Below are positions 9,103 through 41,607 of a stretch of DNA of 64,000 nucleotides, piece after piece. The position numbers and the translations under genes are program-made. The DNA is from Actinomadura terrae (GTDB taxonomy: Bacteria; Actinomycetota; Actinomycetes; Streptosporangiales; Streptosporangiaceae): positions 1,550,001-1,614,000 of the forward strand of contig NZ_JAICDG010000001.1 in the NCBI RefSeq assembly GCF_022751215.1, in the 5' to 3' direction. Within the stretch, counting starts at the first letter, position 1, and the number at the start of each line of letters is the position of its first letter. Under the pieces are notes generated by a model. It was not told where the DNA came from, did no database searches, and saw nothing but the letters and a program-made list of their open reading frames with translations.

Positions 9103-9518
9103 TCCGCCGCCCATCCGGCCCGGCGGCCGCCGCCCGACGTGCGTGGACCGTTCCCGCGACCCCGCCCGGCCCGCTCGTCCCGCCGGACCGCCCGCTCGTC
9201 GCACAGCTACTCTACGCACATCTCCGACTACATACCGCTCATCGAGCCCCGCGTTTTCCGCCTCCCGATCGGAGGCACCAGACCCCTAGTGTTCTCAGTG
9301 GCACAACAGTCACAGCCGCCACGGAGGGCGGACGGCGGGCCGGCACCACCCCACCGCCGAGAACCTCCCACAACAGCAAACCCGGAGATCCGGCGCACGC
9401 CAGTCGAGCGCCGGGTCGTGAGTCGCTGGATCCCGTACCGGGGGGGTGGGATCCGGCGACCTGTGGCTCGGGCGTCGCGGAACAGTCGGGGGGTTGTTCC
9501 GCGGCGTCCGAGTCTTTT

Positions 9519-9610
9519 GTATTTTTCTTGGCGGTCGGCGCTGGCGCGCCTCCCTTCGGCGAAAAACACGGCGATCGCTGGCATCGCTCCGAACTCGCCT
9601 GGCGGCTCGC
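9519..9610 (+). repeat. dispersed structured element, copy 1 (truncated 3' part)
   Basis: Order of parts: 5' arm GTATTTTTC (9519-9527); TTGGCGGTCGG; inner hairpin GGCGC-TGGC-GCGCC (9537-9550); CTCCCTTCGGC; 3' arm GAAAAACAC (9561-9569), complementary to the 5' arm at eight of nine positions; then the constant block GGCGATCGCTGGCATCGCTC and CTCGCCTGGCGGCTCGC. The second hairpin module of copy 2 is missing; copy 2 begins 11 bases further on. Confidence 0.75.
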
Positions 9611-9620
9611 TGTGCTCATT

Positions 9621-9761
9621 GCAGTGCCCTTGGCGTCGGGCGCTGGGCGCCCTCCTTCAGCGGGCACTGCGGCGATCGCTGGCATCGCTCCGAACTCGCC
9701 TGGCGGCTCGCTTCGCGATCAAGTTCTTGCTTCGCTCGAACTTGCCTTCGGACGCGATCGC
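9621..9761 (+). repeat. dispersed structured element, copy 2 (full length)
   Basis: Same order as copy 1 with different arms: 5' arm GCAGTGCCC (9621-9629), TTGGCGTCGG, inner hairpin GGGCGC-TGG-GCGCCC, CTCCTTCAGC, 3' arm GGGCACTGC (9662-9670, perfect complement), then the constant block. A second module follows: CAAGTTC (9720-9726), an 11-base loop, GAACTTG (9738-9744), closing with GCGATCGC at 9754-9761. The constant block is offset exactly 101 bases from that of copy 1. Confidence 0.8.
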
Positions 9762-9779
9762 AACGTGGCCGTTGTCGCG

Positions 9780-9816
9780 GGGCTGGGGTTACTACGCTGC
9801 GGGCTGGGGTTACTAC
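9780..9816 (+). repeat. two tandem 16-base units, period 21
   Basis: GGGCTGGGGTTACTAC at 9780-9795 is repeated exactly at 9801-9816. It lies just after repeat copy 2. No function is apparent. Confidence 0.7.
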
Positions 9817-9853
9817 CTTGTGCGGGGTGCTCTTGGTGCTTTGCTGCCCCTTG

Positions 9854-9870
9854 CTCGCCTGGCGGCTCGC
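9854..9870 (+). repeat. solitary 17-base repeat core
   Basis: A further exact copy of CTCGCCTGGCGGCTCGC, 33 bases before the end of nfo. The flanks (GCCCC upstream, GGGGTGC downstream) can pair weakly, but the rest of the element is not recognisable. Confidence 0.6.
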
Positions 9871-9902
9871 GCTCGGGGTGCCTTCGCCGTCGCTCGCTGG
9901 GC

Positions 9903-10751
9903 TTAGGGGCGTTGGTTTTTCAGGGTTGTTATGTCTTTGGCGTGCGGTTCTGGGGCTCGGCCCGGGGTTTCGATGATGAAGGGGACTCCGGCCACGGCGG
10001 GGTGGCGGAGGAGGTCGGCGAAGGGGGACTCGCCTATGTGGCCGGCGCCGATGTTCTCGTGGCGGTCGCGGCCCGAGGCGCAGGGGTCCTTGGAGTCGTT
10101 GGCGTGGACGAGTTTGAGGCGGCCCTCGCCCACGGTGGCGACCAGGGCGTCGATGGTGGCCTTGACGCCGCCGGGGGCGGCGAGGTCGTGGCCCGCCGCG
10201 TAGGCGTGGCAGGTGTCGAAGCAGACGCCGAGCTTCGGGTGGTGCTCCAGCTTCTCGAAGAAGGGGCCCAGTTGCTCGACCTTGGCGCAGAGCATGTTGT
10301 TCTGGCCCGCCATCGGCTCCAGGAGCAGGTCGGGGCCGTCCTCGGGGATCTCCTCCAGGAGGGGGAGGACGTGCTCGCGGACCTGGGCCATCGCCTCGTC
10401 GTAGGTCTGGGTGACGGAGGAGCCGGTGTGGACGACGACGCCGCGGGCGCCGATCGCGCGGCCGCGGGTCAGGGAGTGGCGGATGGACGCGAGCGACTTG
10501 GCCAGGGTCTCGGGGTTCGGGGAGCCGACGTTGACCAGGTAGGGCGTGTGGACGTAGACGGGGACGTCGGTGCGCTCCAGCAGCTTCGCGTCCTCGGTGG
10601 GCTTGCCCTCCGGCATCGCCCAGCCGCGCGGGTTCGCCACGAAGACCTGGATGGTCTCGGCGCCGATCTCGGCGGCGTACTTCAGGCCGCCGGTGGCGAG
10701 GCCGCCCGCCACCGGGACGTGCGCGCCGATCAGGCTTTTTGGTGAGGTCAT
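9903..10751 (-). CDS. nfo: deoxyribonuclease IV (endonuclease IV, AP endonuclease)
   Basis: 282 residues, full length for the family. It cleaves 5' of abasic sites and removes 3' blocking groups in base-excision repair. The TIM barrel opens IGAHVPVAGGL and carries the zinc-ligand motifs VVVHTGS, LLLEPMAGQ, GVCFDTCHAYAAGHD, LVHANDSKDP and RHENIGAGHIG, ending with a late Glu in FIIETPG. ATG 10751 (MTSPKSLIG) matches the family N-terminus, and a TACGCT -10-like element lies nine bases upstream of it. The gene is followed by the repeat-rich gap and preceded by the PASTA kinase, whose end is 17 bases from its start. Confidence 0.93.
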   Translation of the reverse strand: MTSPKSLIGAHVPVAGGLATGGLKYAAEIGAETIQVFVANPRGWAMPEGKPTEDAKLLERTDVPVYVHTPYLVNVGSPNPETLAKSLASIRHSLTRGRAIGARGVVVHTGSSVTQTYDEAMAQVREHVLPLLEEIPEDGPDLLLEPMAGQNNMLCAKVEQLGPFFEKLEHHPKLGVCFDTCHAYAAGHDLAAPGGVKATIDALVATVGEGRLKLVHANDSKDPCASGRDRHENIGAGHIGESPFADLLRHPAVAGVPFIIETPGRAPEPHAKDITTLKNQRP

Positions 10752-41397: not shown

Positions 41398-41405
41398 GTC
41401 CATTT

Positions 41406-41544
41406 CGTCGCCCTTGGCGTCGGGCCTTGGCGGCCCTCCTTCAACGGGCGACGCGGCGATCGCCGCATCGCTCCGAACTCGCCTGGCGGCTCGCTGCGCG
41501 ATCAGGTCCTCGCTTCGCTCGTACCTGGCTTCGCACGCGATCGC
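41406..41544 (+). repeat. dispersed structured element, copy 3 (full length)
   Basis: Part for part as in copy 2, with new arms: CGTCGCCC (41406-41413), TTGGCGTCGG, inner hairpin GGGCC-TTGGC-GGCCC (41422-41436), CTCCTTCAAC, GGGCGACG (41446-41453, perfect complement), constant GGCGATCGC and CTCGCCTGGCGGCTCGC, then CAGGTCC (41503-41509), loop, GTACCTG (41521-41527), ending GCGATCGC (41537-41544). The two GCGATCGC sites are 89 bases end to end here and 90 in copy 2. It lies between rpoZ and coaBC, which run in the same direction. Confidence 0.8.
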
Positions 41545-41607
41545 GGCGCCGAGGGGTCGATGTCACGATCAAGACGTGATGGCCGAGGAATCGTGAAGGG
41601 AGGCGGG

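Follow-up and report, generated by a model that had tools for sequence, protein, structure and literature searches.

The closest published kind found for the element described here is that of small interspersed repeats such as YPAL/RU-2. In the passages available from one report (PMC2229807), YPAL/RU-2 of Yersinia is 168 bp long with internal inverted repeats, its targets span or adjoin dyad symmetry, and filled and empty sites occur among relatives; the same passages describe ERIC/IRU/RU-1, of 127 bp with terminal inverted repeats and TA ends, as an intergenic folded repeat that acts as RNA on mRNA stability. REPs are given as 20-40 bp units with GTAG or CGTC tags in the available parts of two reports (PMC3733652, PMC8266576). 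In rRNA-gene hairpins arising by template switching, or quasi-palindrome correction, one arm is rewritten from the other, with multi-base compensation, according to excerpts of a further report (PMC8794818).

The present element is a genus-specific, dispersed family of folded repeats of ~150-200 nt. As far as the excerpts describe YPAL/RU-2, the two are similar in size and both contain internal inverted repeats; the likeness is one of description and not of sequence, and YPAL/RU-2 belongs to another phylum. In contrast to YPAL/RU-2, the element has widely co-varying arms, a conserved closed core and the opposite favoured strand, and is without visible target duplication. It is intergenic and folded, as ERIC/IRU/RU-1 is in those excerpts, but its inverted repeats are internal. 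With the REP/BIME/REPIN repeats and their TnpA_REP (RAYT) it shares dispersed intergenic hairpins, but it is 150-200 nt long and its own genome has no Y1 transposase. Arms rewritten from their partners link it to the template-switch hairpins as excerpted, which there are parts of RNA genes and here of a many-copy dispersed repeat. No published description of the repeat was present in Rfam or among the matches listed from open-access full texts, and to that extent the statement of the sequence-only reading that no published family was recognised holds.

Within the window (the whole 64-kb stretch of DNA that was analysed), the element is present as the units and fragments listed in Table 1. Two adjacent copies with shared constant blocks and unrelated but self-complementary arms had been proposed, and the blocks, arms and inner stems were all found at the positions given for them. 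Both copies are indeed present; copy 2 is a full unit and extends beyond the limits first given to it, and copy 1 is truncated, breaking off past the P4 block without the closing arm of P3. The proposed convergent setting was confirmed, the copies being flanked by genes for a PF00474 symporter (plus strand) and a PF01261 AP-endonuclease-like protein (minus strand). No sigma-70-type promoter was found in a scan of 9400-9960. Rfam gave three matches in that interval, of 17-20 bits, far under the cut-offs and outside the units; in the window as a whole, the FMN riboswitch RF00050 (61098-61226, 91.5 bits) was the sole match at the gathering cut-off, and none fell on the element.

Table 1. Positions of the element and associated features (window coordinates, written strand; R1 matches in contig coordinates)
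Feature	Position	Strand	Remarks
Terminator-like hairpin with T-run	9467..9518	+	arms 9467-9484/9495-9512; directly 5' of copy 1
Copy 1, truncated unit	9519..9610	.	weak R1 match 1559512-1559625, E 1.6e-9; P1 arms GTATTTTTC 9519-9527 / GAAAAACAC 9561-9569, 8/9 pairs; P2 stem 9537-9541/9546-9550
Copy 2, full unit	9614..9762	.	R1 model match 1559614-1559762, E 2.9e-37; folded strand probably minus
Copy 2 P1 hairpin enclosing P2	9621..9670	.	P1 arms GCAGTGCCC 9621-9629 / GGGCACTGC 9662-9670, 9/9 pairs; P2 stem 9638-9643/9647-9652
Copy 2 closed core, P3-P6	9672..9761	.	coordinates taken from sequence; P3 GCGATCGC at 9672-9679/9754-9761; inner helix ATCGC/GCGAT 9684-9688/9715-9719; P4 9691-9710; P5 9720-9726/9738-9744; P6 9745-9751
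Weaker conserved extension	9762..9817	.	belongs to ~200-nt unit of tandem arrays; GCTGGGGTTACTAC present twice
P4 block CTCGCCTGGCGGCTCGC standing alone; fragment from an additional copy	9854..9870	+	
Second full unit of the window	41398..41545	.	begins immediately 3' of a TGA stop

On the written strand, the unit consists of a variable hairpin P1 (9+9) around P2, followed by a closed multi-branch core in which P3 (GCGATCGC ... GCGATCGC) encloses the ATCGC/GCGAT inner helix, P4, P5 and P6. By eye, three or more kinds of P1 loop can be told apart, and in some copies a single core is preceded by several P1 hairpins. The spacing in tandem arrays (196-202 nt in L138 and L159; other arrays differ, such as L127 with 234 nt) indicates that the whole unit also contains a weaker stretch of ~45-50 nt. 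The motifs TGAGGTCGTCGCG and GGGGTTACTAC recur in 9762-9817 and in the 3' flanks of many units. At 240-330 of the window lies what by appearance is a degenerate copy directly after a TGA stop, with CTCGCCTGGCGGCTCGC at 264-280.

The constant blocks are neither a chance similarity nor limited to the window: the 24-base block CGCTGGCATCGCTCCGAACTCGCC (≤3 mismatches) had two matches in the window and none in 100 shuffles, and a 286-base query found 23 places in the 8.96-Mb own genome, 40 of 153 first-look candidates having been scored. A covariance model (R1) was made from 21 full own-genome units aligned over ~150 nt, with the weak units L022 and L023 and truncated copies excluded, and returned 29 own-genome matches at E≤1, of which 21 (E<1e-30) are full units. 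In a search of relatives, 19 of 40 genomes were positive, namely the own genome and 18 of the 23 other genomes of its genus (G017 being counted on one weak match), and none of 16 genomes outside the genus was. Together the 19 genomes contained at least 643 matches, and copy numbers in single genomes reached the tens. A family-level search with stricter filters was positive in 8 of 11 same-genus genomes and in 0 of 189 of other genera of the family, where the sequence-only reading had proposed to look for the element. A DNA pattern searched against 84,980 species returned at least 116 stretches, and among the matches listed 115 were from Actinomadura and one from Spirillospora; rarer carriers may exist elsewhere. 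Searches of viral contigs, plasmids and phages gave no match.

The fold was supported by the pairing statistics of the 21 own-genome copies. In these, 96.2% of cells pair, versus 89.7% (sd 0.5) in shuffles, and 15 pairs vary on both sides, versus 7.7 in shuffles, with 0/500 shuffles reaching either value; the number of pair types was a weaker signal (12/500 shuffles as high), and sliding the register reduced pairing to 26-39%. Two-sided changes occurred in 8/9 pairs of P1, 2/6 of P2, 4/9 of P5 and 1/2 of P6, and in no pair of P3, the inner helix or P4 among the own-genome copies.

For the arms of P1, the comparison was extended across the genus. Applied to 147 loci, the model gave 203 matches, 189 of them distinct; with the ahcY loci added there were 204 regions, of which the core-anchored ones reduced to 185 distinct P1 regions. 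Another 36 loci, scanned last, gave 47 matches. The claim of paired arms held in these other copies: 173 of the 185 were paired at ≥7/9, comprising 116 different arm pairs, as were 41 of 44 new P1 regions from the late loci. The best gapless 9-nt pairing was 9 in 68 copies, 8 in 84, 7 in 21 and 6 in 8, and lower or not scorable in 4. With the register left free in data and control alike, mean pairing was 7.99/9, compared with 6.33 when the 3' arms were permuted (maximum of 20 runs, 6.44). An earlier fixed-register test, which scored 149 of the 189 distinct units, had given 4.33/9 pairs versus 3.54 permuted, a small excess because the 3' anchor moves 1-2 nt among copies.

Plus-strand RNA was the initial assumption and was overturned by the P1 wobble count. 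A mismatch written as A.C becomes a G.U wobble when the opposite strand is read. The 116 distinct arm pairs contained 47 A.C, 14 G.T and 41 other non-Watson-Crick cells (p 3e-5), and the excess of A.C over G.T in P1 indicates that the wobbles fit the minus strand. At positions 3-7, a range picked after the counts were known, A.C outnumbered G.T 46 to 4; positions 1, 2 and 8 together showed the reverse (A.C 1, G.T 10), which we suspect is due to stem ends and register. Counting once per local context, A.C and G.T numbered 29 and 10 overall and 28 and 4 at positions 3-7. In 24 new arm pairs from the late loci, with positions 3-7 preset, the direction was the same (A.C 8, G.T 2, p 0.11), and all 35 late-loci arm pairs gave A.C 10 and G.T 2 (p 0.04). 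Slightly less weight is placed on the minus-strand reading, and slightly more on a purely mutational origin of the pairing, because the bias flips at the P1 ends and the held-out count is small. Mismatches in P5 were without bias (A.C 5, G.T 4), P2 contained three T.G cells on the plus strand, and the totals over every stem in the 21 own-genome units were A.C 12 and G.T 9.

The loops also differed between strands. Among 165 parsed units, 98 had a P4 loop of the GNNA/GNRA class on the minus strand and 0 on the plus, and YNNG loops were equally frequent on both (26 and 29). On the minus strand P4 takes the form GAG-CC-loop-GG-GAG, the loop being GCCA, GCAA, GCUA, GUAA or YNNG, and in P5 the caps GC-GAA-GC, CUUG or GNNA are flanked by GA...GA. 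GA-stem-loop-stem-GA caps numbered 2.49 per unit on the minus strand and 0.017 on the plus (172 units, a count made without shuffle control). The P2 variant GGTCGCTGGCGCTCC is mismatched on the plus strand and reads G-GA-GC-GCCA-GC-GA-C on the minus. Compared with its own shuffles, copy 2 folded as RNA with z -4.64 on the minus strand and z -3.65 on the plus; as DNA, both strands folded (z -4.20 and -4.17). G.A caps and GNA loops are also stable in single-stranded DNA, and mutation biased by strand (G to A on plus) could produce a similar mismatch bias. Selection on a minus-strand RNA nevertheless appears most likely from these patterns, with single-stranded DNA or strand-biased mutation as the alternatives.

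In some P1 hairpins one arm appears to have been rewritten as the exact reverse complement of the other. Loci totalling 1.33 Mb, with overlapping parts counted repeatedly, contained 49 distinct hairpins that pair perfectly over ≥15 bp, and 10 of the 14 of ≥20 bp were the P1 of the element. These ten, of 20-25 bp and including the mutually orthologous L237 and L245, extend across the normally unpaired internal loop. Nine of them (without L245), together with the hand-added L238, which has one mismatch, were compared half by half. In the clearest cases one half is family sequence and the other its exact reverse complement. The comparison named the 5' half as source in L186, L240 and L238 and, by a smaller margin, the 3' half in L237. 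The half in L186 matched normal 5' halves at 0.79 and complemented 3' halves at 0.21; the corresponding values in L237 were 0.48 and 0.65. In 6 of the 9 tested (L111, L206, L058, L099, L110 and L174) no source half was assignable. L240 retains only the 5' end and P1, its own core being lost and an inverted unit following; in the sister G237 the P1 found at this site is normal. An arm rewritten from its partner is what published work gives as the mark of template switching (PMC8794818, PMC7202029). As a separate observation, L231 and L185 contain 25-27-bp perfect hairpins with a common CGTTGACTTGCGGCGTGTTG and differing loops, one of them downstream of ahcY in a genome that lacks a unit at this site, and perhaps represent another hairpin family.

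Units often adjoin stop codons exactly or follow a terminator. Contexts were assigned with our own simple gene finder, tandem units being counted singly; 13 of 190 overlapped a predicted gene. The other 177 comprised 47 convergent and 14 divergent spacers, 49 whose neighbours both run in the direction of the written strand, 36 whose neighbours both run against it and 31 with one neighbour unknown. Like YPAL/RU-2, the element lies close behind stops and terminators: where the upstream gene is codirectional (111 units), 43 units begin within -10..+12 of that gene's stop and 23 of the 43 at -4, 0 or +1, and copy 1 directly follows a terminator-like hairpin and T-run. The common junction forms are stop+GTTCATTGC and TGA/TAA+TTGC. 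A 2006 paper on YPAL is said to report insertion immediately behind stop codons.

Turnover was followed behind ahcY (PF05221/PF00670), where 60 genomes were compared and the spacer was measured in 53. It was 66-101 nt without a core (21 genomes, one with a remnant), 201-721 nt with a core in either direction (26 genomes) and 230-383 nt with other sequence (6 genomes). Placed on a tree of 59 rows, the site requires eight presence/absence changes, the six other-sequence rows being uncounted, and with well-supported branches only, four changes were forced for the occupied rows. Units are inverted in G234 and G245, and G251 contains an inverted one.

In a comparison with the sister genome G012, 17 of the 21 own units occupy sites where G012 has a unit too, some degenerate (spacings judged by eye), and at the sites of L028 and L031 the G012 unit is inverted. 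Among the four other sites, candidates for empty ones, one holds a relic in G012; none of the four was clean, the spacer differing in each, and no target duplication was seen. Within the G012 stretches compared, the orthologous copy was the best match for just 5 of the 17 units, for core and P1/P2 alike; thus units at fixed sites change faster than their flanks, and hairpins are replaced or exchanged as blocks, by which paired arms travel together. L281 (G012:C3:151590-152701), at the site orthologous to that of L026, has long G and C runs in its P1 hairpin, perhaps a genuine expansion, perhaps an error of assembly.

Two causes had been put forward in the sequence-only reading, strong selection for the hairpin or the joint writing of both arms. 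Each seems to act, and so does the replacement of whole hairpins between copies. Two-sided compensation, with mismatches that are mostly wobbles on the minus strand only, speaks for selection, and the perfect P1 hairpins speak for writing. The co-changing arms are thus probably the product of selection on the fold, occasional template-switch rewriting and exchange between copies. The explanation favoured here, tentatively and at slightly less than an even chance, is a genus-specific repeat whose selected form would be the folded minus strand, most likely as RNA. Point changes in the arms would pass through G.U in that RNA and be compensated later, replication template switching would occasionally copy one P1 half onto the other to leave a perfect palindrome, and copies would exchange or replace whole hairpins; units at gene 3' ends could act as 3'-end or antisense RNA structures, in stability or bidirectional termination. 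In the 49 contexts antisense to the minus strand on both sides, a minus-strand RNA would need its own promoter. A rather unlikely alternative is that the pairing is unselected and that intrastrand template switching keeps or remakes hairpins in an inert repeat. Its mechanism is published, as far as the excerpts of PMC8794818 and PMC7202029 go, and it accounts for perfect hairpins across a normally unpaired loop and for a normal type-2 P1 in G237 and a perfect one in G251 at the same ahcY site in sister species; however, the A.C/G.T bias, the loop classes and the near-invariant core ask for selection, and 105 of 185 copies keep 1-2 mismatches in the 9-nt arm.

A YPAL-like plus-strand 3'-UTR element, co-transcribed with the upstream gene and terminating or stabilising its mRNA, with T-rich P1 versions as bidirectional terminators, would agree with plus-oriented units that start at stop codons, with the rarity of divergent spacers (14/177), with a minus-strand terminator-like match within copy 1 whose T-run is supplied by the T-rich arm, and with G233 and G234, where by eye a unit occupies the place of the relatives' terminator-like hairpin. 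This is unlikely, since it predicts more G.T than A.C in P1 and the reverse was observed. Still less probable is a folded single-stranded DNA, the substrate of some single-strand transposase as in REP or attC, to which the stability of G.A caps and GNA loops in DNA, the DNA folding of both strands and the ahcY changes would be congenial. The Y1 transposase PF01797 is absent from 14 of the 16 same-genus genomes searched, the own one included (present in G002 and G004), the occupied sites in G012 point to little recent movement, and neither a clean empty site nor a target duplication was found there. A REP/RAYT origin was not supported, in view of unit size, of the absence by eye of a GTAG/CGTC foot at P1 in the consensus and of the lack of PF01797 in the own genome. 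A reverse-transcriptase-mobilised "bacterial SINE" was unsupported, there being no RVT_1 match in 9 of 13 carrier genomes, the own included; RVT_1 exceeded the cut-off in the non-carrier G018. Examined as a MITE, the element has internal inverted repeats and the differing G012 spacers given above. Taken further, the minus-strand RNA reading would make the units mobile or once-mobile RNAs settling at stops and terminators with neither a RAYT nor a resident reverse transcriptase, their P1 re-invented by template switching; judged from sequence patterns, this is possible though doubtful.

What makes the two arms of a stem change in concert is a long-standing question. In this family a single hairpin can be present tens of times in one genome and recurs at one site across dozens of species, and normal, mismatched and perfectly rewritten versions of P1 coexist, so that compensation, template switching and copy exchange can be counted against each other. 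If the reading as mobile or once-mobile minus-strand RNAs is true, the element would be a natural experiment on paired change in RNA arms, run in hundreds of parallel copies. It would also constitute a new repeat family in an actinobacterial genus, with a testable role at the 3' ends of genes.
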